Assembly: GCF_000299335.2 (NCBI RefSeq)
Contig: NZ_CP004387.1
Coordinates: forward strand, 2,356,001 to 2,420,000
Reading direction: 5' to 3'
DNA length: 64,000 bases
Origin: Isoalcanivorax pacificus W11-5
GTDB lineage: Bacteria > Pseudomonadota > Gammaproteobacteria > Pseudomonadales > Alcanivoracaceae
In this document: one piece after another, positions 8,348 to 64,000 of the stretch
Layout of the letters: every line of letters starts with the position of its first letter
Numbering within the stretch: position 1 is the stretch's first letter
Position numbers and translations under genes: made by a program
Notes under the pieces: generated by a model
Told to the model about the DNA's origin: nothing
The model's input: the letters and a program-made list of their open reading frames with translations, nothing else
The model's database searches: none

Positions 8348-8420
8348 TGAACACAAAGTATGGCAAGGTGATGGCATACCCGCAACCGCAGGTACTTTAT
8401 GGTGTTGTTTCGGCTCGATA

Positions 8421-8951: not shown

Positions 8952-9094
8952 GGGTCACTCCTTCGTCTTCACCATGGCCGCTGGCCACGGCAGCGGGGCT
9001 CCATCTCCACCGCTGTGCATTCAGTGTCGTGCCCGCCACGGCGGGCGGACATCAGTCTTCATCCTGGCCATCCGCCTCGACATCCCGCCTCTAT

Positions 9095-11296
9095 CTATTT
9101 GTACTCGTAGGCGTAGTAACTGTAGGCATTGCTGGCCTTGCGTTCCACTGCGTTGAGGATGCAGCCTTTTACATGCACCCCATTCTGCTCGAAACGGCCC
9201 AGCGTCTGCTCCACTTCCTTGATGGAATTGCGGCCGTAACGGGTCACCACCAGGCTGGTACCGGCCAGATTGCCGATAATCGCAGCGTCAGTCACCGCCA
9301 GGATCGGCGGGGTGTCGATCAGCACCAGATCATAGTCGCGGCTGAGCTCTTCCATCAGCCCCTGGAACCGGGGGTGCATGAGCAGCTCCGCCGGGTTGGG
9401 GGGGATTTCACCCCGGCCGATAAAGTCCAGGCCAGGGATATCGGTGTGCAGCGTCACTTCTTCCCGTGAATTACGCCCCGCCAGATAGGTCGACAGCCCG
9501 ACGGCGTGGTCAGACGGGAAGTAGCGATGCAGGTGGCCCTTGCGCAGGTCGCCGTCCACCAGCACCACCCGCTGGCCAACCTGCGCCAGCACCATGGCGA
9601 AGTTGGCCGACACGAACGATTTGCCCACTTCCGGGCTGGGGCCAGAGATCATCAGCACATTGTTGGAGGCTTCGAGCATCGCAAAGTGGAGGCTGGTACG
9701 CAGGCTGCGCAGCGCTTCAATGGTCAGGTCGCCGGGGTTGGTCTGGGCCAGCAACTGGTGTGTCTTGTTGGGCGTGCCACGGCGACGGCTGATCCGCGAG
9801 ATCAGCCGTTCATTGCGAATCTGGTCTTCGGACAGCGGCAGTGTGGCGTAGACCGGGATGCCTTCCTGTTCCAGCTGGTCCGGGCTCTCGATACCGCGAT
9901 TGAATGCGGCGCGCACAAATACCTGCCCGACCGCCCCCATGAGACCAAGCAGCGTGGCCAGCACCACGACCAGCGCCTTTTGTGGTTTGATCGGCTCCGG
10001 CTGCACCTGCGCGTTATCGATAATACGCACGTTGCCGATGGTGCCCGCCTTCATGATGCGCAACTCCTGCACGCGATTGAGCAGTTGCACGTAGATTTCC
10101 TGGTTCAGCTCCACGTCGCGCATCAGCCGCAGGATCTGCTGCTGGGTTTCCGGCAAGTTCTTGACCTGGCTGTTCAGGCGCTCGCGCTCTTCTTCAAAAC
10201 TGCGCCGCTGCTCCATCAGGGTGCGGTAGGCCGGGTGCTCGCGGGTATAAAGACGATTGACTTCGCTTTCGCGGAATTTCAGTTCGTTCAGCTTGGCTTC
10301 CAGCTGTACGAGCTGGTCAAGCACGGCCTTGGTTTCCAGGGACAGGTCGACGGATTCGCTTTCCAGGCGATAGGCGTTCAGTTTTTCTTCGGCGGCGTTC
10401 AGCTCGTCGCGGATCTCGGGCACCTGTTCATCGAGGAATTCCAGGCTTTTCTCGGCTTCGGCGGAACGGCGCTGGACGTTCTGGAGCAAGTAATTCCTGG
10501 CCACGGCGTCGAGGATCTTGCTGACTTTTTCCGGGTTTGCGCCGGTCATGCTGACCGTGAGGATACCGGTGTTACGCCCTTTCTCCGCTACGCTGAGATT
10601 GGCCAGCAACTGTTGCATCACCCGCCGGCGAGACTGTTTCACCACCTCAAAACGCGTGCCGGGCTCTGCATTCAGTTCGGCCACGCGGATGGCGATGCGC
10701 TGGTCTGCAGAGCGGGCTTCTTTGCCCGGCTCGCCTTCCAGTACCGGCTCGCCGTCGAGGGTCAGTGTGAAGCTGCCGCCCTCGCCGGCTTCCAGAATAA
10801 AGGTGCTGCCCAGCAGCCATTCCGGCACCGCAAGCTGATCAATCCACAATTGTTTTTCGGTATCGGCCCAGCCGGCGAACAGGATGCGATTGTCCTTTTC
10901 TTCCGGCCCGAAAAACCGGCCGATGACGGGCAGGGATGCCGGCTGCACCTGGATATCGGCGCGCAGCTCATCTGCGGCATTGCCGATCACCATGCGCGAA
11001 CGGATGATCTCGATTTCTGTCTGCGCGGAGCTTTCGCTGCCGAGCATTTCCGAGAGGTCTCCCAGCACGGGCAGGCCCGACTGCCGCGCCTCGATCTGCA
11101 ACAATGCATCGGCGCGATAGATGGGGGTGGCCACAAAGGTGTAGATCACGCCCACGATGAAGGCCATGGCGGTAATCAGCCCGATCTGCCAGCGGTGATC
11201 CACCAGCAGGGCCCACAGGCGTGTCAGATCGATTTCATCATTGGCACCCGCCGCCATCCGGCCTGCCATTCCCCGTTTTGTATCCTGTTCGGTCAT
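9095..11296 (-). CDS. wzc: Wzc-type polysaccharide co-polymerase / tyrosine autokinase
   Basis: A 733-residue inner-membrane protein. It has a Wzz domain with a first TM segment at about residues 38-60, a long coiled-coil periplasmic region, a second TM near 430-450, and a C-terminal BY-kinase domain. That domain carries Walker A (GPSPEVGKSF near 552-561), Walker A' (VVLVDGDLR) and Walker B (VLIDTPP). The tail ends in a tyrosine cluster (NAYSYYAYEYK), the autophosphorylation sites removed by Wzb. It controls chain length and works with Wza in export. ATG 11296 has CGGAG upstream and follows the wzb stop by 13 bases. Confidence 0.93.
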   Translation of the reverse strand: MTEQDTKRGMAGRMAAGANDEIDLTRLWALLVDHRWQIGLITAMAFIVGVIYTFVATPIYRADALLQIEARQSGLPVLGDLSEMLGSESSAQTEIEIIRSRMVIGNAADELRADIQVQPASLPVIGRFFGPEEKDNRILFAGWADTEKQLWIDQLAVPEWLLGSTFILEAGEGGSFTLTLDGEPVLEGEPGKEARSADQRIAIRVAELNAEPGTRFEVVKQSRRRVMQQLLANLSVAEKGRNTGILTVSMTGANPEKVSKILDAVARNYLLQNVQRRSAEAEKSLEFLDEQVPEIRDELNAAEEKLNAYRLESESVDLSLETKAVLDQLVQLEAKLNELKFRESEVNRLYTREHPAYRTLMEQRRSFEEERERLNSQVKNLPETQQQILRLMRDVELNQEIYVQLLNRVQELRIMKAGTIGNVRIIDNAQVQPEPIKPQKALVVVLATLLGLMGAVGQVFVRAAFNRGIESPDQLEQEGIPVYATLPLSEDQIRNERLISRISRRRGTPNKTHQLLAQTNPGDLTIEALRSLRTSLHFAMLEASNNVLMISGPSPEVGKSFVSANFAMVLAQVGQRVVLVDGDLRKGHLHRYFPSDHAVGLSTYLAGRNSREEVTLHTDIPGLDFIGRGEIPPNPAELLMHPRFQGLMEELSRDYDLVLIDTPPILAVTDAAIIGNLAGTSLVVTRYGRNSIKEVEQTLGRFEQNGVHVKGCILNAVERKASNAYSYYAYEYK

Positions 11297-16983: not shown

Positions 16984-17505
16984 TCACACCTCCCGGAACA
17001 ACTCCTGGATGTCAGGCAATGGCATAAACAGCAGCAAGGGATTCTCGGGTGCTGCCCGAAAACCGAAGGCTGTATAAAACAACCTCGCGTTTTCATCCTG
17101 TGCATCGACAAGCAGCCCCACACAGCCTGATGACTCCGCCACGGCAATCACTTTGCGTAATGCATCCACTAACAGCAGCCGCCCCAATCCCTGGCGCTGA
17201 TGCCGCACATCGATACCCAACCTGGCCAGCCGGACAACAGGCAGGACGTGGGTTGGAAGGCGATAGTGCCTGATCAGGTCAGCCGTGAGCTCCCCAACAT
17301 TGACAATGGCATTCGTCAGCGAATAGAAACCAGCTATTCCATCACCTTGTAACAGGCAAAAGGTGCGCGTCACATTTCTCTTTTCATGCTGCAAAGCCGT
17401 TTGCACAAGATACTGATTCAACGCCGGCTGGCCACAATCAAAGACCGCTCGACTTGCCAACATCTCAGCGCTCAATCGGGACAGTTGGCGAATCGTTATT
17501 ATCAT
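16984..17505 (-). CDS. tacT: GNAT acetyltransferase toxin, TacT/AtaT-like
   Basis: A 173-residue GNAT enzyme starting with the FDCGQPALNQYL signature of aminoacyl-tRNA-acetylating toxins. The acetyl-CoA loop lies at R101-L110 (RHQRQGLGRL) and the catalytic tyrosine is near 144 (RLFYTAFGF). Family members acetylate the amino group of charged tRNAs and block translation. It overlaps the antitoxin gene by 41 bases; AGAGG upstream supports ATG 17505 over an internal ATG at 17463. Gene order (antitoxin first) and pairing with a DUF1778-type protein fit the TacAT class. The acylated tRNA species is not predictable. Confidence 0.88.
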   Translation of the reverse strand: MIITIRQLSRLSAEMLASRAVFDCGQPALNQYLVQTALQHEKRNVTRTFCLLQGDGIAGFYSLTNAIVNVGELTADLIRHYRLPTHVLPVVRLARLGIDVRHQRQGLGRLLLVDALRKVIAVAESSGCVGLLVDAQDENARLFYTAFGFRAAPENPLLLFMPLPDIQELFREV

Positions 17506-17794
17506 CCAGGGCCTCTCTGTACGACATCAGGGCCTGCCTCAGGCGGGCATTCGGTGCACGCGGCCTGGCCAGTTGCTCTAGAAACCACTCCGAATCCTGC
17601 TCAGACAATGTGATGTTCTTCATTTCATAACGATCAAGGACATCCTGGGCGTGCTGGTGGACGACCTGAACGATGTAGGCGTTCAGAGGAACTCCTGTCA
17701 ATTCAGCGGCGCGCTGGATAGTTTCCTGAACGCTCACCGGCACCCTGGCGGTAATCCTGCCTTTCGGCTGATCAGTCGCACTTCTGCGCAACAT
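17465..17794 (-). CDS. tacA: DUF1778/TacA-type ribbon-helix-helix antitoxin
   Basis: A 109-residue protein with an N-terminal ribbon-helix-helix (GRITARVPVSVQETIQRAAELTG, about residues 11-34) and a C-terminal toxin-binding tail (LSEQDSEWFLEQL) typical of DUF1778 antitoxins. It binds the operator as a dimer and wraps the GNAT toxin. I chose ATG 17794, with GAGGT seven bases upstream; the longer frame upstream runs through the promoter. The operator candidate lies at 17882-17918. Confidence 0.85.
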   Translation of the reverse strand: MLRRSATDQPKGRITARVPVSVQETIQRAAELTGVPLNAYIVQVVHQHAQDVLDRYEMKNITLSEQDSEWFLEQLARPRAPNARLRQALMSYREALDDNNDSPTVPIER

Positions 17795-17861
17795 CTGTGT
17801 TACCTCGCGGATCAAAGCTGATGGATGGGCTGGATGCGACACAGCCTTAATAAACCCCCAA

Positions 17862-17890
17862 ATTGTGTAAAAATCACACATTGGTGTCAA
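17862..17890 (-). promoter_or_regulatory. Sigma-70 promoter of tacA-tacT
   Basis: On the minus strand TTGACA (17890-17885), a 17-base spacer and CACAAT (17867-17862) form a promoter 70-90 bases before tacA. The -35 box lies within the arm TGGTGTCAA (17882-17890), which is mirrored by TTGACACCC at 17911-17919 with one extra base, so repressor binding would mask the -35 region. Confidence 0.6.
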
Positions 17891-17988
17891 TATGTCACCT
17901 GGATGCGTATTTGACACCCAAGACCCACTCATACAACCGACCCTTTCCAATCGGGCTGACCTGGTATGCCAGGCCAGCCCGTGCTGAC

Positions 17989-18285
17989 TCACTCCACTTT
18001 GATCCGCCCGCGATTCTGCTCAACCGTACTTGGCCCAATGCCTTTGACGCGCACCAGCTCGTCCGCAGATTGATAAGCACCATGCTGTTCACGATCCGCC
18101 ACGATGGCCTCGGCCCGGGCCATGCCGACACCGGACAGGACTTCGGCAATTTCGTCGGCACCGGCCTGGTTGATGTTGACCGTGGAGGTAGCGGTAAGCG
18201 CCGGTTCGGCAAGTGCTGCACCGGAGGTCAGGGCAAGGCCGCCGGCCAGCAGCAGGGACAGGATGATATTGAGATAGCGTTTCAT
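17989..18285 (-). CDS. Secreted ComEA-like helix-hairpin-helix protein
   Basis: A 98-residue protein with a signal peptide (about residues 1-26, ending ALA) and a single helix-hairpin-helix domain: VNINQAGADEIAEVLSGVGMARAEAI and VKGIGPSTVEQN. This is the soluble, periplasmic form of the ComEA DNA-binding domain found in many Gram-negative bacteria, linked to DNA uptake during transformation. AAGGAG precedes ATG 18285. It is the last gene on the minus strand of the conserved rpsA-to-pyrF group but is separated from pyrF by a strong hairpin, so it may have its own promoter. Confidence 0.85.
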   Translation of the reverse strand: MKRYLNIILSLLLAGGLALTSGAALAEPALTATSTVNINQAGADEIAEVLSGVGMARAEAIVADREQHGAYQSADELVRVKGIGPSTVEQNRGRIKVE

Positions 18286-52609: not shown

Positions 52610-52767
52610 CAGGGTGTTGAAAAAGCCTCTTTGAGGCTTTTTCAAGCCACCTTTGCGGCACAGGTCCGCAAAGGTGGGCACAGAAAATCAATCGCTTATC
52701 GCGTTTGATTTTGCTGACGGCTTGCTTGAGCCGTCAGCGCAGGCTGTTTTTCAACAGCCTGCTAGGG
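52604..52767. mobile_element. MITE-like element with terminal inverted repeats (copy B)
   Basis: CCCTAGCAGG at 52604-52613 and CCTGCTAGGG at 52758-52767 are perfect inverted repeats, and similarity continues inward (GTGTTGAAAAA against the complement of TTTTTCAACAG). The interior folds into three hairpins: AAAAGCCTC/GAGGCTTTT, CCACCTTTGCGG/CCGCAAAGGTGG and GACGGCT/AGCCGTC. It has no coding capacity. Copies A and C elsewhere in the window show it is a family. Confidence 0.75.
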
Positions 52768-53031
52768 CCTGTTCACACTAAATCCATCGGCCCTGCTGGC
52801 CCTGTTTGGTCACCCAGCAAGGCAGCCGATGCGTAGTGTGGTGGGCCCACATGAGCAGCGGCTAACGCAGCGGGGTGGCCAAACAGGGCCAGCCCTTCGG
52901 GTTGAGTCTGCAAACGCACCGCTCCGCGTTGCTCGTCAGTCGCTTGGGGCTGCCAAGCTCGCCTCCTCGCGCCTTGATCGGTACGTTTGCAGACTCAACA
53001 GGGCCGATGGATTTAGTGTGAACAGGCCCTA
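52763..53031. mobile_element. MITE with perfect 33-base terminal inverted repeats
   Basis: The ends 52763-52795 (beginning TAGGGCCTGTTCACACTAAA) and 52999-53031 are perfect inverted repeats over all 33 bases. Inside are a second pair, CTGGCCCTGTTTGG and CCAAACAGGGCCAG, and a third, GTTGAGTCTGCAAACG and CGTTTGCAGACTCAAC. The 269-base element is non-coding and bounded by TA, as expected for Tc1/IS630-type target sites. It shares its left TA with the end of the neighbouring element. The intact ends suggest recent mobilisation by a transposase encoded elsewhere. Confidence 0.8.
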
Positions 53032-53116
53032 GTGAAGCGGGCCGGGGCGGCCTCCCCGCCCCCGGCACTTTCTGCTACCCTACGCGCGCTTTCGTCACTA
53101 GCCACAGGAACACCCC

Positions 53117-53863: not shown

Positions 53864-53892
53864 TCACCACGCGCCTGCAAAACGCTGCACAC

Positions 53893-53928
53893 CACACACT
53901 CAGGCACCTGCCCGTGCCTGAGTGTGTG
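53893..53928. terminator. Bidirectional hairpin between gpmA and the RND pump gene
   Basis: CACACACTCAGGCAC (53893-53907) and GTGCCTGAGTGTGTG (53914-53928) form a perfect 15-base stem around a six-base loop between convergent genes. There is no uridine run on either side, but the position and strength fit a shared transcription end. Confidence 0.7.
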
Positions 53929-53933
53929 CTGCC

Positions 53934-56900
53934 TCAACGCCCTTCCCGGCCCGCCTGCCAGGCCGCCTGCAGGACTTCGTCCTGGTATGGATTGGTCACC
54001 TGCCGATCAAACGCCGCCGCACGCCCGGCACGATAGGCCTGCTCCAGATCGTCTTCCGGTTTTGCACTGCGCCGGCGCAGGTCATCCAGCACCATCAGCA
54101 ACGTCGGCACCAACAGCAGCGTAACCAGTGTGGCAAACACCACGCCGAAACCGAGAGATACCGCCATCGGTACCAGGAATGCAGCTTGCGGGCTGTCCTG
54201 GATAATCAGCGGGGCGACACCGAAAAACGTGGTGGCGGTCGTCAACATGATCGGCCGGAAGCGATTGGCGCCCGCCTCCACCACCGCCTCGGCCATGGGA
54301 CTGCCTTCGCGCGTCAGCCGGTTGATCTCGTCGATCAGCACCAGGTTGTCATTGATCACCACACCGGATACCGCAATCACGCCGATCACCGACCAGAGCG
54401 TCATGTCCAGCCCCAGCAGCAGATGCCCCAGCAATGCCCCGACCAGCCCGAACGGGATCACGCTCATGACCAGCAACGGTTGCGAATAGGTACCGAACAA
54501 CACGGTCAGCAGGAAGAACATGCCGATCAGTGACAACAGATAGGCGAAGCCGAGCGTGCCGAGGAATTCGCTGATCGCTTTCGGTTTGCCAGCGATGCCC
54601 CAGTCCGCCGCTGCCGCACTGGCACTGGCAGGATAGTCCTCCGCCAGCGTATCCAGCATGGCGTCACGCAGCACGGTCATCACCTGTGCAGGCGACGTGA
54701 CACCGCTGTCGACCAGCGCGGTGACCGCAGCATGCCGGCGGTTGTCGTAGTGGCCGATCAGGGCGGGCTGATCCTGTACAGCCAGTTGCGCCACCACTTC
54801 CAGGGGTGCCCATTCACCACCGGGCAGATGCACCGGCAACTGGCGCAGATGCCACAGGGAATTGCTGTCCGCCCCACGCAAACGCAGCGTCACCGGCACA
54901 TCGCGATCCTGTTCCGGCAGCCGGTCGATCACGATGCCATGCACGGCCTGGCGCACCTGGTCCCCCAGCATCGCCACCGTCAGCCCCGCCTGCAGCCCTT
55001 CGTCCGTGAGCGTCAGGTTCACCTGGTCGCGGCGCGCTTCCAGGCTGTTGCTGATTTCGTGGACACCCTCAATGCCGCGCAATAATTGCTGCAGGCGCTG
55101 CGCCATCTCATCGAGTGTGGCCATGTCGGCGTGATACAGGTTGATGTGAATATCCGGCTTGGTCTGCAGCAGGCTGGCATCAAAACGCACCGACAACGCG
55201 TCGCGCACCGGCCCGTGCACACGCCGCCAGTCGTCCGCCATACGGCGCACGTCCAGCGCAGTGTCCGGCGCCAGCCGCAGGCTCAAGCGCGCACGGTGTG
55301 GTGCATCCGGTTCCGCCGCGTTGGAAATGTTGTAGCGAAAACCCTGTTCGGCAAAACGGTGTGCAAACAGCGTGTCACGTTCATACTCCGCTGCCAGGCG
55401 CTGCGCGCTGCTGTCCAGCCGCGCCAGTTCCTCGCGGATACGGTGCGCGGGGGAGCCCTGCGGAAACACCACCTCGGCCACGACCTGATTCGACGCCACT
55501 TCGGAAAACAGCACCGTATTCACCCAGCCGGTATGCATCAGGGCCGCACTGAGCAGCAGCAAGGCCACAAACGCCGACATCAGCACATAACGCCAGCGCA
55601 GCACCCGCCGGATAAAGGGACGGTAAACGCCGGCGAGCAACGCGTCCAGCCGCACATTGAAGCGTTCGCTCAGCGCATCGGACGCGCGCAGCAGGCGCGA
55701 CGGGCGCTCGGTTTCATGCGCCAGATGTGTCGGCAGCATCCACAGTGATTCCACCAGTGACAACATCAGGATGCTGATGGCCACAATCGGTACCACGCGC
55801 ATCAGCGCCCCTTCCGGGCCGGGCAGGAAAAGCAGTGGCACAAACGCCAGTGCGGTGGTCAGCACCGCGTAGCAGATCGGCCGCGCCACCGCCCGCACAC
55901 CCCGCAGCGCCGCTTCGCGACCGCGATAACCGAGCCGGCGCTGGTGATGCACGCTCTCGCCGACAATGATCGCGTCGTCGACGACAATGCCAAGCACCAG
56001 AATGAAGGCGAACAGCGAAATGGTGTTGAGCGATTCGCCCAGCAGCGGCAACACCACGCAGGCACCGAGCATTACCACCGGAATACCGAGCGCAATCCAG
56101 CGTGCCAGTGACAGCCCCAGCGCGAGCCCCAGCACCAGCATCAGGATCACCAGCGCCTGCAGGCCGTTCGACCACAGCAGCCCGGAGCGCTCGCGGAACT
56201 CCGCAGCATCGTCCTGCCACAGGGTGACGCTGATGCCTTCGGGCAACGCCAGTTGCTGCCGATACAGCGCCACGGCATCGGCCACGTCCAGCACCTGTTG
56301 CCGGCCAACGCGGTACACATCAATGGCCACCGCCGGCCGACCATCCAGCCAGGCGCCCATGCTGTCACGGGCAAAGGCGTCGTGCAGCCGCGCCACGTCA
56401 CCAACGTGGAGCGTATCGCCGTATTGCAGCTGGCGCAGCGGCAGCGCCAGATAATCCAGCGGCTGCTGTGCGCGGCGACCGGTCTCCAGCAGCAGGTTGC
56501 CGTCCTCGCTGCGCAGAAGGCCGCCGGGCACGGTGTCGGTGCGCACCTGTAATGCCGCGGCCATGTCCGCCAGTGACAGGCGATGCTGATACAGGACGTC
56601 GCGCGGCACTTCCAGTGCGATTTCCCGCTCGGGCAGCCCTTCGATATCCACCACGGAAATCGCATCCAGTGCCAGCAGTTCATGGCGAATGCGGTGTGCC
56701 AGCCGGTACAGGCCCAGATCGTCCAGGTCGCCGGACAGCAGCAACCGCACCACCCGGTTGCGCACGATCAACTCCTGCACCTGCGGCCGCTCCGCGCCGG
56801 CCGGCAGGTCACGCAGGGTCTCCAGTGCAGCACGCACGCGTTCCAGCACCGCGCGGGTGTTGTAGCCCTGCTGCACATCCACCGTCAGGTGGCAACTTCC

Positions 56901-57161
56901 TTCGCGCGCCTCGCTGACCAGATCGGTAAGGCCGTCGATGCCGGTCAAGGCGTTTTCCATCGGGGTGCACAGCAACTGCTCCACCCGTGCCGGCGCCGCC
57001 TGCGGCAACAGCGTGACCACGCCGATGCGGTCCAGTGGCACATTCGGCAAGGTTTCCTGGCGGGTTTTGCTGATCGCGAGTACACCGGCCACCAGCCACA
57101 GGCACAACAGCAGCCGCACCACCGCCGGCCGTTCAATAAACCAGTGCTGCGCACCGCTCAC
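53934..57161 (-). CDS. RND-family efflux pump, inner-membrane subunit
   Basis: A 1075-residue RND (AcrB/MexB-like, closer to the HAE2-type divergent pumps) transporter. It has TM1 near residues 10-28, two large periplasmic loops, and the proton-relay aspartate pair in TM4 (LVLGIVVDDAIIVGESV), with a matching C-terminal block (IGVIAVSGVVINDNLVLIDEINRL). The start is GTG 57161, overlapping the adaptor stop (GTGA). It is last in the operon that starts at 62935. The cargo is unknown; operon context suggests export of the compound made by the upstream enzymes. No outer-membrane factor gene is in the window. Confidence 0.88.
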   Translation of the reverse strand: MSGAQHWFIERPAVVRLLLCLWLVAGVLAISKTRQETLPNVPLDRIGVVTLLPQAAPARVEQLLCTPMENALTGIDGLTDLVSEAREGSCHLTVDVQQGYNTRAVLERVRAALETLRDLPAGAERPQVQELIVRNRVVRLLLSGDLDDLGLYRLAHRIRHELLALDAISVVDIEGLPEREIALEVPRDVLYQHRLSLADMAAALQVRTDTVPGGLLRSEDGNLLLETGRRAQQPLDYLALPLRQLQYGDTLHVGDVARLHDAFARDSMGAWLDGRPAVAIDVYRVGRQQVLDVADAVALYRQQLALPEGISVTLWQDDAAEFRERSGLLWSNGLQALVILMLVLGLALGLSLARWIALGIPVVMLGACVVLPLLGESLNTISLFAFILVLGIVVDDAIIVGESVHHQRRLGYRGREAALRGVRAVARPICYAVLTTALAFVPLLFLPGPEGALMRVVPIVAISILMLSLVESLWMLPTHLAHETERPSRLLRASDALSERFNVRLDALLAGVYRPFIRRVLRWRYVLMSAFVALLLLSAALMHTGWVNTVLFSEVASNQVVAEVVFPQGSPAHRIREELARLDSSAQRLAAEYERDTLFAHRFAEQGFRYNISNAAEPDAPHRARLSLRLAPDTALDVRRMADDWRRVHGPVRDALSVRFDASLLQTKPDIHINLYHADMATLDEMAQRLQQLLRGIEGVHEISNSLEARRDQVNLTLTDEGLQAGLTVAMLGDQVRQAVHGIVIDRLPEQDRDVPVTLRLRGADSNSLWHLRQLPVHLPGGEWAPLEVVAQLAVQDQPALIGHYDNRRHAAVTALVDSGVTSPAQVMTVLRDAMLDTLAEDYPASASAAAADWGIAGKPKAISEFLGTLGFAYLLSLIGMFFLLTVLFGTYSQPLLVMSVIPFGLVGALLGHLLLGLDMTLWSVIGVIAVSGVVINDNLVLIDEINRLTREGSPMAEAVVEAGANRFRPIMLTTATTFFGVAPLIIQDSPQAAFLVPMAVSLGFGVVFATLVTLLLVPTLLMVLDDLRRRSAKPEDDLEQAYRAGRAAAFDRQVTNPYQDEVLQAAWQAGREGR

Positions 57162-58297
57162 GGTGTACCCGCCTGCACCAGGGCATCGGTGTGCGGCCGC
57201 ACGCGGCTGCCTTCCAGCCAGCGCAGGCCGCCATGCAGCACGATGCGCGTGCCTTCCGGCAATTCCGCCGGCAGGTACAGCCACTGGCTGTCTTCATACA
57301 ATGGCGTGACGCTCTGCCGGCGCAGCCGCTGCGCTGAGTCCAGTCGCCAGATCTGCCGCTCGCCCGCCAGTACGGAACGCGGCAGGCGCACCACGCTGCT
57401 CAGTGTCCGGCCTTCAATGTCCGCCTGCACCAGCAGGCCGGGCTCAGGCGGGATTTCGTCAGCGGCGACGTCAATCTGCGCCACCAGATAGATCATGCGG
57501 TTTTCGTTCAGCCCCCCTTCGCGACGCACGATACGGCCCTGCCAGCGACGTGTCGTGCCGCCGAAATCGCCGCGCAGCGTCACCCGCGGGGCGGTCTCTT
57601 CGCCGGCCGCCGGCAACAGTGCCAGCCAGCGGTCACGCACCGGCAGGCGCACCTCCATGCTCTCGGTGGTGTACAGCGTTGCCAGCCGTTCCCCCGCATT
57701 GACGTACTGCCCGGTCTGCACGGCCACGTCCTTCAGGCGACCGGTAAAGGGCGCGGCAATACGGGTGTCGGCCAGTTGCAGTTCCGCGTTGCGCAATGCC
57801 GCATTGGCGGCGGCCAGCCGCGCTTCCGCTTCGGCCAGATGCGGTTGCAGCAGTGCATAGGGCGAGGCATCCGGGCCGCTGGTGCGCCGCGCCACACGGG
57901 CCCGCGCGCGGGTTTCCGCCAGGTGCAGACTGGCCGAGCTGGTATCGTGGCGCTGGCGCGCCAGCGCCAGTTCGAAGGGTTCGGGGTCCAGTTGCAGCAG
58001 GCGCGTGCCCGCCTCAACCAGGCCGCCATTGCGGAATGCATCGTCGGTGTCCATCACGCGGCCACTGACGCTGGCGATCAGCGCAATCTGGCGCGCCGGC
58101 TGCACGATGCCTTCCGCCCGGATCGGCAGCGTCAGCGACTGCCAGCGCACCGGCAACACCGCCACCTCCGGCACCACCTGTTCCGGCGTGCGGCTGTGCG
58201 CAGAGGGCGCGGTCAGATACAGACCGGCCAGCAGCGCGGCCGTCACCACCACCAGCCCTGCCAGCACGCCGGCCTGTCGATAACGTCGCTCAGACAC
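57158..58297 (-). CDS. RND efflux periplasmic adaptor (membrane fusion protein)
   Basis: A 379-residue adaptor anchored by a TM helix (about residues 9-28). It is followed by lipoyl half-motifs (VSGRVMDTD...NGGLVEAGTRLLQLD and APFTGRLKDVAVQTGQYVNAGERLATL) flanking an alpha-hairpin of about 80 residues, then the beta-barrel domain. It links the RND pump to an outer-membrane channel. The start is GTG 58297, overlapping the upstream condensation-like gene by eight bases, and its stop overlaps the pump start, so translation is coupled throughout. Confidence 0.88.
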   Translation of the reverse strand: MSERRYRQAGVLAGLVVVTAALLAGLYLTAPSAHSRTPEQVVPEVAVLPVRWQSLTLPIRAEGIVQPARQIALIASVSGRVMDTDDAFRNGGLVEAGTRLLQLDPEPFELALARQRHDTSSASLHLAETRARARVARRTSGPDASPYALLQPHLAEAEARLAAANAALRNAELQLADTRIAAPFTGRLKDVAVQTGQYVNAGERLATLYTTESMEVRLPVRDRWLALLPAAGEETAPRVTLRGDFGGTTRRWQGRIVRREGGLNENRMIYLVAQIDVAADEIPPEPGLLVQADIEGRTLSSVVRLPRSVLAGERQIWRLDSAQRLRRQSVTPLYEDSQWLYLPAELPEGTRIVLHGGLRWLEGSRVRPHTDALVQAGTP

Positions 58298-59318
58298 TGT
58301 GCGTCACTCCCTGCTTCTGCGGGCCGGTTTGCCGGGCGTTCTCCGACGGCGGGCACTGCGCCAGCAGCACGTCGCGCCAGTGCGCCAGGCAGGCATCACG
58401 CGCGGCATCGTCCAGCCCCAGCACCGGGTCCAGCCGCAACGCCAAGGCCAGCCGACCGTTCGTGATCATCATGCCGTTGGCCACCGGGTGATTCGGACTG
58501 CCGGGGCCGCACGCACACAACAGCGCCTGCGGCGGCAGCAATGTGCCACGCGTACCCAGCCACCATTCGCCCAACACGCTGAAGGAACCAAGGTGGCAAT
58601 GCCGCGACACCAGCCGCCGGTAAATCCGGTTGACCACGGCCTGCCCGAGCCGCGACACCAGATGCGCCTGATGCCAAAGCCACCAGTGCCGGCCGGCGCG
58701 CAGTGATTCGCGCAGGTGCTGTTGCAGCGCCACCGCACTGAGACGGCGCGGCAGCGTCACGTAAAAGCCACCGGCGTGATTATGTTCTTCGCTGGGCAGG
58801 CGCAGTGCACCGCGCAGGCTGACCGGGTAGAACCAGCTGCCGCCGCTGGACAGCGCCAGCCGCGCCATCACGGTTTCGTGCAACGCCCAGAACACCAGGG
58901 TCGCCAGGGATACCTGCCGGGCCTGGGCCTGCTCGGTCAGCGCACGCGTCTGCGCCCGGGAAAACCAGCATACCGATATCGGAGGCCGGCCCAGTGCAAC
59001 GCCCGCACCGCCCGGGCGCCATTGCGCAGATGGCGCAACGGGTTGGCTCGCCCGCCGCGCCGCCCGCCAGCTTTGCCACAGCCCGGGCACCGTCTGCGCG
59101 CGCGCCGGTGGTGCGGCAAAGCGGGTCACGCCCCAGCGCCGGAACAGACGCAGAAATCCGCCGATGCCGTCGGCTTCGCGGTGCGGAACAGATTCCCACC
59201 GCACCTGCCCGCTGACGGGATCAATCACGGCGAAATACATGGTGTCATCAATACCCAGCGGCGCCCTGGCACGGAACCAGGGCGCGGCGACATCGGGATG
59301 AAATGCGGGGGCCGTCAT
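58290..59318 (-). CDS. Condensation/CoA-dependent acyltransferase-fold protein
   Basis: A 342-residue protein with HREADG at residues 46-51, a version of the HHxxxDG catalytic motif of condensation domains and wax-ester/acyltransferases in which the first His is replaced (PHREADG) but the catalytic second His and the Asp are kept. Downstream are the expected NPRS-like segments: SVLGEWWLGTRGTLLPPQALL near the solvent channel and VANGMMITNGRLALALRLD near the end. Such folds join an acyl group to an amine or alcohol. ATG 59318 has GGAG upstream; the frame before it is unrelated. The partners are the neighbouring GNAT and GH3 proteins. Confidence 0.65.
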   Translation of the reverse strand: MTAPAFHPDVAAPWFRARAPLGIDDTMYFAVIDPVSGQVRWESVPHREADGIGGFLRLFRRWGVTRFAAPPARAQTVPGLWQSWRAARRASQPVAPSAQWRPGGAGVALGRPPISVCWFSRAQTRALTEQAQARQVSLATLVFWALHETVMARLALSSGGSWFYPVSLRGALRLPSEEHNHAGGFYVTLPRRLSAVALQQHLRESLRAGRHWWLWHQAHLVSRLGQAVVNRIYRRLVSRHCHLGSFSVLGEWWLGTRGTLLPPQALLCACGPGSPNHPVANGMMITNGRLALALRLDPVLGLDDAARDACLAHWRDVLLAQCPPSENARQTGPQKQGVTHSV

Positions 59319-59328
59319 GGCAACACTC

Positions 59329-60411
59329 CTACAACCGGGCGACTTCGACATACGGCAGGCGACCGTCCAGCAGCGGCCGGGGGTCCTGCCCGTAGCTGAC
59401 CAGAAAATGCCGGCTGGCCAGGCGCTGGCGACGATAGCCACTGGCCGCTTCGCGCAACGGGTCCTGGAGAAAAAAACCGGCGGAGAGCGCGCAGCGGTCA
59501 CGCCGCGCCTGCTCCACCAGTGGCTGCAACAGGGCATCAAGTACCGCCGGCGCATCGTCACGCACCAGTGTGCTGTGCAGCAGCCGGTAATTCAGCGTGC
59601 CGCCTGCGGCGGGCAGGTGCAGCCCGCCGCGCAGCCGGCTGTACAGATTGAGCAGATGACGCAGGCCGCCGAGCGCAAACGGATAACGCAGCACGCGGGT
59701 CTGCTTGAACCCTTTCTGGCACCAGGTGCCGGTCATGCCGACCAGTTCGCTGCCGCGCCAGGCAAGCAGAAAATCCTGCACTGACAGGCCGCGGTAGTAA
59801 TCGTGCCCGGCAATCAGATCCGACAGTGCGTAGCGCGGGAAAAATTGCCGGCGCGGCCCGTATTCATCCAGCCATGCCTGCATCAGCGGCAGGTCATCCG
59901 GCGTTGCCTGCGTCACGCGGTAGCCGTGCGCGCGACGGCGTGCGCCGCTGAACAGCAGGCTGGTTTCGATCTCGCCGCAGGGGTAATACACCGGCAACCC
60001 GGCGCGGCCACTGCCAACGGTTTCCAGGGATGCGCTGTTGTCACTGAGAATGACGGTCTGCATCCACTCGCCGCTGCGCAGGATCTGTCGCAGTTGGCGG
60101 AACAGCCGCACCAGCAGCGTACTGCCGCGCCAGGCCGGTGCCAGACGCAGGTCGTGTGCATACCGCACCGGGCGTGCTGCGCCGTTGACCATCACGCGCC
60201 GGCAGCCGACGTTGAACACGGCGATCACCGTGTCCTGCTCATCCACCGCGATCCACAGTTCCGGTGTCTCGCAGCTGACGCCGCTGCCATGCAGGAACGC
60301 CGGCTGGCGTTCAAAATTCAGCAGCACGCGGCCGTGCTGTGGCGTGGCATCGACCAGCGCAAGAATGCCCGCATCGTCCGCCGGCGTGGCAGGCCGGATC
60401 AGATAACGCAT
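59329..60411 (-). CDS. GNAT-family acyltransferase, probably double-domain
   Basis: A 360-residue protein. The N-terminal half is a clear GNAT domain: IRPATPADDAGILALVDATP at the start, then FERQPAFL, the beta4 strand AVFNVGCRRVMVNG, the acyl-CoA loop region YAHDLRLAPAWRGSTLLVRL and ILSDNSASLETVGSGRAGLP. The C-terminal half (from about 175) restarts with YRVTQATPDDLPLMQAW, suggesting a second, degenerate GNAT domain. ATG 60411 overlaps the GH3 gene by 13 bases. It is an acyl- or acetyltransferase of unknown substrate within the synthesis operon. Confidence 0.78.
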   Translation of the reverse strand: MRYLIRPATPADDAGILALVDATPQHGRVLLNFERQPAFLHGSGVSCETPELWIAVDEQDTVIAVFNVGCRRVMVNGAARPVRYAHDLRLAPAWRGSTLLVRLFRQLRQILRSGEWMQTVILSDNSASLETVGSGRAGLPVYYPCGEIETSLLFSGARRRAHGYRVTQATPDDLPLMQAWLDEYGPRRQFFPRYALSDLIAGHDYYRGLSVQDFLLAWRGSELVGMTGTWCQKGFKQTRVLRYPFALGGLRHLLNLYSRLRGGLHLPAAGGTLNYRLLHSTLVRDDAPAVLDALLQPLVEQARRDRCALSAGFFLQDPLREAASGYRRQRLASRHFLVSYGQDPRPLLDGRLPYVEVARL

Positions 60412-62063
60412 CCTGACAGGCTCCCCCGCGCGTCGCTGACATCGTGCAGGGCCGGCGGCAAAACCTCCGGCCAGTCGCGCAACGGTTCGATCTTGATATT
60501 GCCCTCGATCATGCCGCGCAGCCGGCACTGGTGCAGGTAGAACTCGCGCATGTCCTGCCGGCACACCACACGCGCCGGTGCAAGCTGACCCAGCCCGCGT
60601 GCGAGTTGATAGTGAAAGTGCTGCGCCAGCGCGGTTTCCAGTCGCTCGCGAATACGCTGCACCGCAGACTGCGGCGCACTCGCGCCGGCACATTCCACCA
60701 GTAGCACGTAACCGGGCTTGCCGGCGCTGTTGCTCTGCCGGGCTGCCAGCAGTGTCACCGGACGCAATGTTTCGCCCCAGGGCAGCGCATCCAGCACTTG
60801 CTGCACGTATACCGCACCGATTTTTTCGCCGACCATGTCGACACCGTCGTTGCGGCCCAGAAAGCGCAGCACCGGCAGGCTGTTGAGATGGCTGTCCACA
60901 CGCAGCCGGTCGTTCAGCCGGTAACGCAACAGGCCACTGCCTGTGGACAGCAACGGCGCCACTTCCTGGCCAGGCCGCAATGCCCAGGGCGGCAGGATGC
61001 GACCGCTGTCCAGATCCTCGAATTCATACACATGGGACTGATAGGCCAGCACCCACTGTCCCTGGCACGGCACCGTCACCACGCCTTCCGTGGCCCACAG
61101 CCCCTTGCCCTGGAACGCGGCCTGCGGCAACAGCCGCTGCAACAGCGTTGCCCAGGGTGCGGCGGCAGCCGTGTCCCAGGCACTGACCAGCGCCAGGCGC
61201 GGCCACAGGCGCAGAAAGAAATCCGCCGTCAGCTGGCCATCCCACTCGGCCAGCAATGCCGCCGCCTGCGGGGCGCGCGGGCAACGCAACCTGTCGGGCA
61301 GGGCCACGCGCCGGTGGCCCCAGTCGCCATGCCGTAACGCGTCGATCAGTTCATCGCGCCAGTCCACCAGCCGCTCGAACAGTGTCAGGGCAAAACTCGG
61401 GCTCCACACCGACAACACCGTCAGTTGTGCGTCCGCCACCAGCCAGGCCAGAGTGGCGAACTGTGCGTCATCGGAAGTACGCGCCAGCGCGATGAGTTCC
61501 GGCACCGACTGCGTCATGGCCGCCAGCAGCCGCTTGCCGCCGGTCAGCACTTTCATGTCATCGTTGAGATGGCTCTGCCCGCTGTCGCGCATGCCATCCG
61601 GCAGCCAGGACACCGACCAGTAGTGCGAGCCACGGCGAATGCCCGGGAACTGCCGGTACAGATCGTGCAGCCAGGGTGCGATGGCGCCGTCCAGTTCATG
61701 CAGGAATTCGCGCGTGTATGGCACCCACTTGATCTCGGAGGTGGAACCGCTGGTCGGCTGGTACCGCATCACCGGCGAATTGATCAGCGCCCCTTCCTGC
61801 CAGCGCCGCTGTGCTTCCACGGGCGCGGACCAGTCCCGGTAATCGGTGACCGGCAATGCACGGCTGAACTCCTCCCAGCGCCAGTCGCCATTCACCGGCG
61901 GCAGTGACGGATGCCGACGCGCCTGTGCCACCCGTCGCACCAACCCGGCCAGCCGTGCACGCTGTACCCGCTCCAGCGCATGGCTGTCGCGGACAAAGCG
62001 TCGCCCCCCGGCGGCCACAACACGATTCAGCACGGCATGGCCGAGCCGGTGACGAACACTCAT
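60399..62063 (-). CDS. GH3-family acyl-adenylating amido synthetase
   Basis: A 554-residue member of the GH3 family, known from plant auxin- and jasmonate-conjugating enzymes and from scattered bacteria. ATP motif 1 is PTSGSTSEIKWVPYT (about 103-117), and the second half has STGSGLLRYRLNDRL followed by FLGRNDGVDMVGEKI, the family's adenylate-binding signature. GH3 enzymes activate a carboxylate as acyl-AMP and pass it to an amine such as an amino acid. ATG 62063 overlaps the stop of the upstream gene (ATGA). Operon partners suggest that the product is modified by GNAT and condensation enzymes and exported by the RND pump. Confidence 0.85.
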   Translation of the reverse strand: MSVRHRLGHAVLNRVVAAGGRRFVRDSHALERVQRARLAGLVRRVAQARRHPSLPPVNGDWRWEEFSRALPVTDYRDWSAPVEAQRRWQEGALINSPVMRYQPTSGSTSEIKWVPYTREFLHELDGAIAPWLHDLYRQFPGIRRGSHYWSVSWLPDGMRDSGQSHLNDDMKVLTGGKRLLAAMTQSVPELIALARTSDDAQFATLAWLVADAQLTVLSVWSPSFALTLFERLVDWRDELIDALRHGDWGHRRVALPDRLRCPRAPQAAALLAEWDGQLTADFFLRLWPRLALVSAWDTAAAAPWATLLQRLLPQAAFQGKGLWATEGVVTVPCQGQWVLAYQSHVYEFEDLDSGRILPPWALRPGQEVAPLLSTGSGLLRYRLNDRLRVDSHLNSLPVLRFLGRNDGVDMVGEKIGAVYVQQVLDALPWGETLRPVTLLAARQSNSAGKPGYVLLVECAGASAPQSAVQRIRERLETALAQHFHYQLARGLGQLAPARVVCRQDMREFYLHQCRLRGMIEGNIKIEPLRDWPEVLPPALHDVSDARGSLSGCVI

Positions 62064-62935
62064 CGCGCGCCTCGCCCGGTGGCCGGTGTGGCCACCGAAC
62101 GCCCTTCGCTTACACGCCACTGCTTGGCGACAAACCGGAACAGATAGCGCAGCAGGTCGGAATAACCGAGTTGCCCCAGGCACGGCAGCTCGGTGCCCTG
62201 GCGCCAGCTCGGGTTACGCGCTTCAAAAAAGGCGATGCGCGGGAATCGCTCTCGCATGTCATCGGTAATGTCAGCCACGTTGTCACGCAGGCGCTGGTAG
62301 TCATCACCAAAATCCAGCAGGCGGCGCTGGCTGTCATAGCGGCCCGGAAACATCTGCTCGCAATACTGCTCCACCAGCGATTGATGACGCGGGTCATCAC
62401 CGGCCGGGTTGGGATAAAAGCGGAAAAAATTGTTTGCCAGCAGCAGGTAGGTTTTATAGCCCTTGGAGATCAGCAGCCAGAACAGCGGCGTAAAGGGATA
62501 GCGCAGCCGCAGCCAGAGCATGCGCAGGAAGAACTGCGTCTGCAGCGCACGGCTGCCCCAGTATTCGCGCTCGATGATGGTGTCACCGCTGAATACACCG
62601 CGCACGGTGCGGTGGCCATCACGCAGGGTCAGCACGGCGAGGGTGGAGAAACCGACAATGCGCTGGTCACTGCGTCGCCGGATCAGGAACAGTCCCTGCT
62701 TCTTGCTCAGGTCATGCAGGAAAATATCCAGGCTGGTGTTGTGATAGTAGTTGCAGAAGATGCCGTACATCTGCTGCAGGTCCAGCGGTGTGATTTTCCG
62801 CAACGGCCGATAACTGCCGTACACCGCCGGTTTCTGGCCACCGCCCGTCTGGCTGGACAGCCTGCTCTCTGAAAAAGACCCGGCCGCCATGCCATCGCCC
62901 TTCACCGCCGGCACGTCCTTGCACATCTCGTTCAT
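62060..62935 (-). CDS. Conserved-looking protein of unknown function, possibly GNAT-like
   Basis: A 291-residue soluble protein, the first gene of the operon. The central part (residues about 80-200) has a GNAT-like alternation: a strand RIVGFSTLAVLTL, then TVRGVFSGDTIIEREYWG, then the amphipathic FFLRMLWLRLRYP and KGYKTYLLLANNFFRFYPN. The acyl-CoA loop of GNATs is not evident, so the assignment is tentative. ATG 62935 is preceded by GGGTGA; a GTG at 62977 lacks a ribosome-binding site. It may supply an acyl or amine precursor, but no function can be stated. Confidence 0.6.
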   Translation of the reverse strand: MNEMCKDVPAVKGDGMAAGSFSESRLSSQTGGGQKPAVYGSYRPLRKITPLDLQQMYGIFCNYYHNTSLDIFLHDLSKKQGLFLIRRRSDQRIVGFSTLAVLTLRDGHRTVRGVFSGDTIIEREYWGSRALQTQFFLRMLWLRLRYPFTPLFWLLISKGYKTYLLLANNFFRFYPNPAGDDPRHQSLVEQYCEQMFPGRYDSQRRLLDFGDDYQRLRDNVADITDDMRERFPRIAFFEARNPSWRQGTELPCLGQLGYSDLLRYLFRFVAKQWRVSEGRSVATPATGRGAR

Positions 62936-63131
62936 GGTGTCACCCGATTGTTTTTTGCGTTCAACGGAGAGCGACACAATATGGGCAGGCCCATGGCGGC
63001 GACAGGATAGTCACCGCCAGTTTCTTGTCATTTGAAGACAGTGCTAGTAACTCCTTCCTATTGCCCCAATGCACCTAAAATGTGTACATATATTCACTCG
63101 CTTAACAGCGGGAAGTTATTCGACACTTTTC

Positions 63132-63147
63132 TGTGACCTCCCTCACA
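63132..63147. promoter_or_regulatory. Perfect CRP/Vfr-type palindrome
   Basis: TGTGACCTCCCTCACA has both perfect TGTGA and TCACA half sites with the canonical six-base spacer. It lies 39 bases upstream of the araC start and about 200 bases upstream of the divergent operon, placed to control one or both. Which CRP-like protein this organism has is not shown here. Confidence 0.6.
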
Positions 63148-63185
63148 TATCACCATAACATCAATAAATACGGAGGCTTAACAAA

Positions 63186-64000
63186 GTGAAGTTCAAAGCT
63201 TCGCTACTGTCTGATGCACCACTGGTGCCAATAGTGTACGCACGTATACTTCTCAGACTGTCGTCCCAGAACCTCGCCGAACGGCGCCGGATTGTCGCTG
63301 CAAGCCAGATTGGCGAGTCGATTCTGGACAACCCGGAAGCCTATATTTCCGTGCGCCAGTTCTTCCATCTGATCGATCATTGCCAGCGCACCGACGTACG
63401 TCCCGCCCTTGGCGCACGCTATGGCATGCAGCTGGATCTGTCCGCACACGGTCTGCAGGCCTTTTCGCTGCTGCATCGCCACGCCCGCGCCAGTGTCACT
63501 TGGCGGGCAGTGCAGTTTCTGAACGCACGCACGCCGCTGATGGGCCTGCATCTGATCAGCCAGGGGCAACAGGCGATGGTGCAATTGCGTGATATCTGGC
63601 CCCTCGACAGACGGCGCGACTTTATCGTTGATACCTATCTGGGCAGCATGTGCCGGGTGGCCTCTACCCTCACTCGCCGTTATCGGGTCCACATGCAGCA
63701 GCGACCGCTGCACATGAAGCCGGACTATGAGGATATCTACGGGTGCGAAGTGCGGTTCGGGCAGCACAGCAATGCGCTGGTGCTGGAAAAGGCGCGCCGT
63801 GAACGGCGCCAGGCGGCGCCCGCCGGTGGCATGCAGGCGGTCTCGTCGGAAGCCGGCAACGAGCAGATCATCACGCTGGTGCGCCAGCGCATTCACCAGT
63901 CACCGGGACGCGACTGCACGCTGGACCGGATCGCCGAAAGCCTCGGCAGCACCAGCCGCACAGTCAGCCGTTATTTGAAGGAAGCCGGCCTGCTGTTCAG
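63186..64000 (+). CDS. AraC-family transcriptional regulator, C-terminus beyond the window
   Basis: The frame is open from GTG 63186 (GGAGG nine bases upstream) to the window end, 271 codons. The N-terminal part is a ligand-binding domain of the type found in OruR/GltR-like AraC regulators: YARILLRLSSQNLAERRR, RYGMQLDLSAHGLQAFSLL, GMHLISQGQQAMVQ-like segments. The C-terminal part (from about 225) begins the helix-turn-helix (RDCTLDRIAESLGSTSRTVSRYL). It is divergent from the GH3 operon and is the natural candidate for its regulator, perhaps sensing the exported compound or a precursor. Confidence 0.85.
   Translation, partial: MKFKASLLSDAPLVPIVYARILLRLSSQNLAERRRIVAASQIGESILDNPEAYISVRQFFHLIDHCQRTDVRPALGARYGMQLDLSAHGLQAFSLLHRHARASVTWRAVQFLNARTPLMGLHLISQGQQAMVQLRDIWPLDRRRDFIVDTYLGSMCRVASTLTRRYRVHMQQRPLHMKPDYEDIYGCEVRFGQHSNALVLEKARRERRQAAPAGGMQAVSSEAGNEQIITLVRQRIHQSPGRDCTLDRIAESLGSTSRTVSRYLKEAGLLF

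Follow-up and report, generated by a model that had tools for sequence, protein, structure and literature searches.

A GH3-type amido synthetase operon with an RND exporter in Isoalcanivorax pacificus W11-5: a candidate for carrier-free synthesis and export of a lipoamino acid

Introduction

What is made by an operon in which a GH3-type acyl-acid amido synthetase lies among three further proteins of acyl-transfer folds and directly beside an RND adaptor and pump, and does the product leave the cell? The question is raised by six genes in the 64,000-nucleotide stretch of DNA analysed here (the window), from I. pacificus W11-5, a relative of oil-degrading marine bacteria; an earlier note on the same DNA had read them as a candidate synthesis-and-export system. 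Searches of the open-access literature gave no earlier description of this set of genes.

Operon organization

The six genes, here called A to F, are tightly packed on the minus strand, with an AraC-type gene, G, divergent from them. The coordinates agree with the layout given in the earlier note at all five junctions: a 4-base ATGA overlap between A and B, a 13-base overlap between B and C, a 10-base gap between C and D, an 8-base overlap between D and E, and a GTGA overlap between E and F.

The GH3 enzyme and its companion acyl-transfer proteins

Gene B (60399-62063, minus strand) encodes a protein of 554 aa that contains the Pfam GH3 N, M and C domains at 90, 42.2 and 25.8 bits, against a curated cut-off of 23.6 (PF03321, PF23571, PF23572), and its profile retrieves plant GH3 structures with a best E of 1.6e-16. 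The three GH3 nucleotide-binding motifs, as listed in PMC12493201, are seen as T104SGSTSEIK112, W323ATEG327 and G377LLRYRLND385; residues T104, S105, G106, S107, K112, T325, E326, G377, R380, Y381 and D385 are invariant in an alignment of 28 B sequences (A3: the window's and those of 27 of 52 relatives). On these domains and motifs B is judged a true GH3 family member, the profile searches having placed it there, as the earlier note supposed, and not in an unrelated family. It has the GH3 domains and the three motifs in common with the plant synthetases GH3.15, GH3.5, GH3.12 and JAR1, but it is distant from them in sequence and lies in a bacterial operon, and hormone substrates are not expected for it. 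In a tree of 28 core and 16 other GH3 sequences, which omits duplicate loci and the weak GH3 loci L107, L109, L111, L112 and L113 of four genomes, several non-triad branches are very long; one of the "no A" rows, L094, is an additional GH3 gene from genome G014, in which the A-B-C triad is present as well.

Of the window's proteins, A, C and D fall short of every Pfam cut-off, and their identities come from folds and relatives. Gene A (62060-62935, minus strand) encodes 291 aa from the ATG at 62935, with an alternative GTG start open 14 codons upstream. It had been described as unknown, and it has no Pfam family, but it can be identified as GNAT-type: its AlphaFold model (pLDDT 81.9) has strands and helices in GNAT order and finds GNATs in Foldseek with an E value of 5.7e-5 at best and a TM-score, by target, near 0.5, so that a single GNAT-fold protein is predicted, and one that is part of the invariant core described below. 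The Pfam GNAT family was matched by only one, at E 0.036, of the 43 members of its alignment (A1: the window and 42 of 51 A relatives). Gene C (59329-60411, minus strand, 360 aa), whose model has a pLDDT of 91.8, matches in Foldseek the tandem GNAT 7q3a at E 8.8e-12 and N-myristoyltransferases at E from 3.3e-11; from this model it is taken to consist of two GNAT domains and to resemble N-myristoyltransferase. Among 44 aligned members (A2: the window and 43 of 51 relatives), a conserved C-terminal RL is found in 43, the sole exception (L062) reading on through ambiguous bases, and 27, the window's C not among them, match Pfam Acetyltransf_9 with E values of 0.1 or less.

Gene D (58290-59318, minus strand, 342 aa) carries a catalytic HxxxDG motif, with H46, D50 and G51 invariant in 13 sequences (A4: the window and 12 of 15, omitting L022, L039 and L065). 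It scores 14.5 bits against Pfam PapA_C, under the cut-off of 30 (E 0.024); of the 13 members, 5 match the same family with E values of 0.1 or less, the lowest being 2.7e-7, and the D profile matches the PapA5 structure 1q9j at E 0.0069. By motif and profile, D appears to be a divergent HxxxD acyltransferase of the PapA/condensation-like kind. In mycobacteria, PapA5-type acyltransferases go with RND/MmpL export, and there, as here, an HxxxD lipid acyltransferase is encoded beside an RND-superfamily exporter; the present operon differs in having no polyketide synthase, an AcrB-type pump with adaptor in place of MmpL, and a D under the Pfam cut-off. NRPS adenylation, carrier and condensation modules were sought in the operon with Pfam and NCBIfam, and none was found.

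Conservation of the gene set

The first scan for relatives was pattern-based and picks up close relatives only. Of the 52 loci, 51 have A next to B and 51 have C next to B, each absence falling at a contig end; such A-B-C loci occur in Alcanivoracaceae, Aquabacterium and Moraxellaceae, and the three genes are co-oriented in 49 of the 50 in which all were called as ORFs. In 41 of the 52 an HxxxD relative is encoded no more than 7 kb from C; in a Halomonadaceae MAG (L057) D is missing and a gene for a lipid A-type acyltransferase follows F. The gene set is thus conserved in layers, with A-B-C as its core: conservation, as far as the earlier note implied it for the whole set, holds for the triad and mostly for the HxxxD gene, but just partly for the pump and the AraC gene. 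In a 369-genome sample of the class, GH3 is present in 18 of the 368 other genomes, and among these 18 are all eight in which A occurs (hypergeometric 5.7e-12 for the co-occurrence). Divergent triads have Rieske, AurF-like, desaturase, radical-SAM, P450 or NQR2/FG-GAP/UnbV genes as neighbours.

Of 42 genomes of the genus Aquabacterium, 41 hold A, one of them only as a fragment, and 37 score like the triad type by our count. The AlkB of the window's genome, searched in 39 of these genomes (G448, G449 and G465 being left out), found some match in all 39; in seven (G429, G430, G431, G450, G455, G463 and G466) the matches were only distant, which here means E weaker than 1e-70, a threshold of our own. 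Six of the seven hold A, and a strict link to alkanes is not supported; in Aquabacterium, A looks like a core trait of the genus rather than an oil-specific one. A is also no obligate partner of GH3, though it is so in the class sample: among second-paralog loci fetched from Aquabacterium-genus genomes, six of six (L129-L132, L134, L135) have A without B or C. In a seventh, L133, A lies beside divergent B and C.

The exporter

Gene E (57158-58297, minus strand) is over the cut-off for HlyD_3 in Pfam and for RND_mfp in NCBIfam (110.9 against 94.9), and gene F (53934-57161, minus strand) is over that for ACR_tran in Pfam, at 438 bits, with MdtB, MdtF, MexB and AcrB among its solved relatives. 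E and F are accordingly best described, from these profiles, as the adaptor and pump of a tripartite RND exporter; no outer-membrane channel was found among the six operon proteins. The exporter had been called dedicated, and here an RND adaptor and pump are indeed present, but across the 52 loci the pump is interchangeable: it belongs to any of three RND lineages, or its place is taken by an ABC-2 exporter. An exporter with an HlyD-type adaptor gene lies beside the triad in 32 loci, and none was detected nearby in the other 20, of which 19 are among the 31 Aquabacterium-type loci. Since the pump changes in kind or goes undetected, synthesis and export do not form one fixed system, and a fixed synthesis-plus-export unit was rejected; the varied exporters beside the triad in the 32 loci suggest, for their part, that the product is exported.

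Alcanivorax surfactants and other routes in the hosts

According to a review, A. dieselolei yields a proline lipid, A. hongdengensis a lipopeptide of undefined structure and A. borkumensis a glucose lipid. A search of the open-access literature gave no genes for synthesis of the Alcanivorax proline lipid or lipopeptide beyond those for proline supply. A. hongdengensis A-11-3 (L046) has A to F and the AraC gene, and its assembly (G426, of unstated completeness) gives 0 matches to the PF00668 condensation domain, on which ground an NRPS origin of its lipopeptide was rejected. A genome of 4,928,223 bases, which we take to be that of A. dieselolei B5, carries A-B-C-D and, in inverted orientation, an RND pair, together with 3 condensation domains; one of 3,120,143 bases, presumably that of A. 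borkumensis SK2, has only GH3 and AraC relics beside gpmA, and 7 condensation-domain matches. The glycine-glucolipid of A. borkumensis is an amphiphile of the same bacterial family, and its ecological use is likely the same, but its synthesis is NRPS-based and the SK2-like genome keeps only the relic.

Elsewhere in the window's genome lies an NRPS locus with 11 condensation domains over the cut-off, PF00668 giving no match at the operon itself (G000). An OlsB-type PF13444 protein is present in 10 of the 10 Alcanivorax-type genomes checked, the SK2-like one included, and alone could make N-acyl amino acids; an attempt to exclude other N-acyl amino acid enzymes failed on this count.

Proposed function and alternatives

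The closest characterised bacterial case that was found is OlsH, described in 2025 from the planctomycete Singulisphaera acidiphila, which uses ATP to join a fatty acid to ornithine as N-acyl ornithine (PMC12493201); GH3-dependent bacterial lipid synthesis being published, the operon's putative chemistry has a precedent. In both, a GH3-type enzyme and an acyltransferase are encoded in one operon, and a carrier-free N-acyl amino acid is the expected first step; the comparison is with the published description of OlsH. In planctomycetes an OlsI-type alpha/beta-hydrolase is as a rule encoded in the same operon as OlsH (PMC12493201), and among the six proteins neither such a hydrolase nor an OlsG-type methyltransferase was found; a single GNAT, a tandem GNAT, an HxxxD enzyme and an exporter stand in their place. 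The best reading is that the chemistry would be as in OlsH, but with a different set of enzymes.

We put it at about an even chance that what the operon makes and exports is a lipoamino acid, that is, an amino acid or small amine bearing at least one fatty acyl group, assembled without NRPS or carrier protein. The steps that we infer from the gene identities would begin with B activating a free fatty acid to acyl-AMP, which would be joined to the amino group of the amino acid. A and C would transfer more acyl (or aminoacyl) groups to this molecule, C perhaps acting as N-myristoyltransferase does; D would add a second acyl group, as ester or amide; E and F would expel the amphiphile through a TolC-type channel encoded elsewhere; and G, with a CRP-type protein, would set expression. 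In oil-degrading hosts a biosurfactant is the most likely use.

Several lines of evidence converge on such a product. The GH3 domains and motifs and the OlsH precedent point to an acylated amide, and in this the earlier note seems right. The three further acyl-transfer folds, the conservation of the triad, the HxxxD relatives near C and the lipid A-type acyltransferase in place of D in L057 argue the same way, as do the complete set without condensation-domain matches in A. hongdengensis, a reported lipopeptide producer, the A-B-C-D of the B5-like genome and the mere relics in the SK2-like genome of the glucose-lipid species. Against it stand the 20 loci without a nearby exporter, the near-universality of A in Aquabacterium, the ubiquitous PF13444 protein, and the NRPS condensation domains of the window's and the B5-like genomes.

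Some of the same facts fit a product that stays in the cell, and it is possible, though somewhat doubtful, that the triad makes a cell-envelope amino lipid like ornithine lipid, which adjacent pumps would place or flop, with no secreted surfactant. The product of OlsH is a membrane lipid (PMC12493201). The presence of A in nearly every Aquabacterium genome and the 19 of 31 Aquabacterium-type loci without a nearby exporter also suit an envelope lipid. An exporter with an HlyD-type adaptor, as in the 32 loci, would however be unusual for an inner-membrane lipid, and an OlsI-type hydrolase is missing from the six proteins.

A small non-lipid conjugate, such as an acylated amine or an amide of an aromatic acid and an amino acid serving as signal or antibiotic and exported by an ordinary drug-type RND pump, seems unlikely. 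Plant GH3 enzymes, among the structure entries matched by B, do join hormones and benzoates to amino acids, the Rieske, AurF-like, radical-SAM and P450 neighbours of divergent triads are typical of specialised metabolites, and the solved structures closest to F are drug pumps; but genes of the fatty acid desaturase family also occur in some of the divergent clusters, and the D-type HxxxD enzymes and the L057 acyltransferase point to acyl chains. That free fatty or oil-derived acids are conjugated and expelled to protect the cell during growth on hydrocarbons is highly improbable: AraC-type control with an RND pump would fit stress-driven efflux, and there are known oil degraders among the hosts, but four acyl-transfer proteins exceed the need of a detoxifying step, and A persists in six of the seven Aquabacterium-genus genomes without a close AlkB relative.

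A wider and more tentative proposal is that A-B-C may be a portable, carrier-free amide-assembly module for lipopeptide-like products, fitted out with differing tailoring and export genes, and that it would be the source of the orphan proline-lipid and lipopeptide surfactants of Alcanivorax, for whose genes the operon is a concrete candidate. Such a module would add a route beside NRPS and OlsBA/OlsF-type acyltransferases. In Alcanivorax, Moraxellaceae and Aquabacterium its partners would be HxxxD enzymes and pumps of the RND or ABC kind; elsewhere in the class they would be Rieske, AurF-like, desaturase, radical-SAM or NQR2/FG-GAP/UnbV genes. The module would also take GH3 chemistry beyond one planctomycete pathway, into a set of three enzymes that is widespread in proteobacteria, and would supply carrier-free enzymes for acyl-amino-acid detergents.

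Candidate regulatory elements

Gene G (63186-64000, plus strand), truncated by the window end, encodes an AraC-type regulator whose Arabinose_bd domain matches Pfam at E 3.7e-22; HTH_18 is present in its full-length twin at locus L022. Between G and A, at 63132-63147, lies a CRP/Vfr-type palindrome, TGTGAN6TCACA, the single exact match in the 64 kb, where 0.04 would be expected. The site is exact in 6 of the 6 operon-holding genomes of the genus, and L014, L020 and the A. hongdengensis locus L046 each depart from it at a single position. The control by an AraC protein and a CRP-type site that the earlier note envisaged is thus borne out for the genus, but a divergent AraC gene lies directly upstream of A in only 15 of the 52 loci, and was rejected as a constant part of the set.

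A second conserved element between G and A, GTGAATATATGTACA (63083-63097, minus strand), is a candidate operator of the AraC protein. It is present with 0-2 mismatches in all six operon-holding genomes of the genus and without any mismatch in all three loci (L010, L011, L012) from a second genus; in the other 14 of the 23 regions tested it has at least 3 mismatches, a shuffled sequence averaging about 5.5. A sigma-70 promoter scan gave 2 sites against 1.4 expected. At the far end, between F and the convergent gpmA, the sequence scan found an inverted repeat with 18-base arms (53890-53931), which the T-run terminator scan did not pick and which is probably a bidirectional terminator.

Conservation of the gene set

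Re-reading of the window sequence bore out the six minus-strand genes of the earlier note, with their strand and all of its junctions; they are designated here A (GNAT), B (GH3), C (tandem GNAT), D (HxxxD acyltransferase), E and F, with the AraC-type gene G divergent from them. The window occupies positions 2,356,001-2,420,000 of a one-contig genome of 4,168,427 bases, where B is the only GH3 match. The closest named relative among those searched is Alcanivorax sp. S71-1-4, with 95% GH3 identity. Upstream of gpmA, at 52762-53032, 37-base inverted ends (97% complementary) enclose two further nested inverted repeats, in what looks like a small repeat element.

Genes A, B and C form a genuine conserved biosynthetic module. 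A pattern-based scan of genome contigs from 84,980 species, one genome per species, with B as query, gave 52 loci. A and C were each present in 51 of these, the gaps falling at contig ends (the L060 contig starts inside B; that of L045 stops after B), and all three are co-directional in 49 of the 50 loci where they were called as ORFs; in HTCC5015 (L058), C is inverted. The triad is flanked in Aquabacterium-type loci, a group of 31 of our own making, by atp-like and hemE-like genes, named by eye. A relatives search found full-length GH3 in 25 of 35 other genomes of the family, with a relic in one more, and a divergent copy in 1 of 21 genomes from other families of the order.

The linkage also appears in an independent 369-genome class sample, where A was found in 9 genomes and PF03321 in 19. 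GH3 occurs in all nine A-holding genomes (chance probability 5.7e-12, excluding the window's own genome), and A was absent from the remaining 10 GH3 genomes. A profile of 28 GH3 sequences, from the window and 27 relatives, scored the GH3 proteins of the eight other A-holding genomes at 226 bits or more and those of the 10 genomes without A at 126 or less. A tree built from 44 GH3 proteins puts those linked to A on one side of a branch with 93/97 support and gives the core set 100/100; this separation is supported but falls short of proof, because the non-triad branches are long.

In the 3,120,143-base genome of locus L091, presumably A. borkumensis SK2, gpmA (83% identical) is followed at 8171-9596 by some 75 codons' worth of GH3, with an AraC fragment on the opposite strand; these relics beside gpmA make loss of the operon in situ probable.

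Divergent A genes have a second type of neighbourhood, in which the partners are variously Rieske oxygenases, desaturases of the fatty acid type, NQR2-FG-GAP-UnbV, SnoaL-like or radical SAM B12 proteins, an AurF-like protein (below the Pfam cut-off) or a P450; A-B-C thus behaves as a module common to two kinds of cluster. In L084, A lies among such neighbours and GH3 is on a separate contig. Loci L084-L090 carry divergent A, mostly with B and C, and in several of them it is clustered with such neighbours in what may be undescribed specialised-metabolite clusters.

The encoded proteins

B has all three GH3 Pfam domains above cut-off. The 28-sequence profile retrieved plant GH3 structures from the PDB (best E 1.6e-16), the alignments listed spanning its N-terminal portion and the region around motif III, and TSGSTSEIK, WATEG and GLLRYRLND are the counterparts in B of the three GH3 nucleotide motifs listed in PMC12493201. 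For A, which has no Pfam match above cut-off, the AlphaFold model (pLDDT 81.9) shows its elements in GNAT order; Foldseek matched it to GNAT enzymes with modest similarity (best E 5.7e-5). The model of C (pLDDT 91.8) is a tandem GNAT, best matched by the tandem GNAT MAB_4324 and by N-myristoyltransferases. C ends in RL in 43 of 44 aligned members; four divergent homologues end in SI, SI, LL and SL. Since the catalytic base of N-myristoyltransferase is its C-terminal carboxylate, an analogous role for that of C is a testable guess.

Six loci from Aquabacterium-genus genomes (L129, L130, L131, L132, L134 and L135) hold a second A paralog with neither GH3 nor C nearby, in several of them adjoining tRNA synthetase-like genes, named by eye; the GNAT family of A thus also has a role of its own.

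In D, HxxxDG is invariant across 13 sequences, and similarity to PapA_C was seen only below threshold. An HxxxD relative lies within 7 kb of C in 41 of the 52 loci, the catalytic motif having been read in the D type only; the other 11 include the short contigs L045, L060, L062 and L068.

Exporters and regulation

E is an RND adaptor and F an RND pump. Exporters of the 52 loci were typed by BLAST to representatives, whose kinds were confirmed by Pfam. Window-type RND genes are found in 10 loci, an inverted and different RND pair in 3 (Alloalcanivorax type), a third RND type in 7 (Moraxellaceae; only the adaptor in L062 and L068, at the contig end), and HlyD-ABC-ABC2 in 12 (Aquabacterium type; cut in L060). 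No exporter was detected by this BLAST in 20 loci, namely 19 of the 31 Aquabacterium-type loci and L058, L045 being uninformative. The first 4 kb of the Alloalcanivorax-type loci L036 and L039 hold homologues of the Aquabacterium-type ABC exporter, some 5-9 kb upstream of A, with the RND pair downstream. In L057, from a Halomonadaceae MAG, a lipid A-type acyltransferase gene (17344-18261) lies directly 3' of the RND pump in a cluster without D.

G encodes an AraC-type regulator whose HTH falls beyond the end of the window but was confirmed on its S71-1-4 twin; in 15 of the 52 loci a divergent AraC gene stands immediately upstream of A. TGTGAN6TCACA is exact in all six operon-holding genomes of the genus and has one mismatch in L014, L020 and the A. 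hongdengensis locus; over the 52 upstream regions it is exact in 5, has one mismatch in 1 and two or more in 46 (exact in 0.04% of shuffled sequence). GTGAATATATGTACA, at 63083-63097, is a candidate AraC operator, recurring with 0-2 mismatches in the same six genomes and exactly in three of a second genus; the remaining 14 of the 23 regions searched gave no such match (3 or more mismatches).

Candidate products

The bacterial GH3 enzyme OlsH makes N-acyl ornithine; the authors of that study anticipate that further GH3 homologues will use other amino acids (PMC12493201). Whether the product here is of lipoamino-acid type we consider evenly balanced; that it is specifically one of the orphan Alcanivorax surfactants seems rather unlikely. 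The review PMC6669457 credits A. dieselolei with a proline lipid, A. hongdengensis with a lipopeptide of unknown structure and A. borkumensis with a glucose lipid, and terms the pathways apparently unrelated. Proline-synthesis genes are indicated by PMC5174103 (with pssA and yciA in addition), PMC11309472 and PMC9788540, and PMC11511702 names N-acyl proline surfactants of an Alcanivorax strain.

A. hongdengensis A-11-3 has A-F and the AraC gene, and no condensation-domain matches were found in its genome; the A. borkumensis-like genome has 7. A 4,928,223-base genome, which we take to be A. dieselolei B5, has A-B-C-D with the inverted RND pair and also 3 such matches. A real competitor for making simple N-acyl amino acids is an OlsB-type PF13444 protein, present in all 10 genomes checked. 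A purely oil-related role for A in the Aquabacterium genus is argued against by its near-universal presence there (41 of 42 genomes), which does not track AlkB. Outside the window, at about 1,159,600-1,192,500 of contig 1, the window's genome carries a large NRPS locus with long open frames and 11 condensation-domain matches above cut-off, a candidate separate source of lipopeptide or siderophore; this locus is also present in a second genome, G004.
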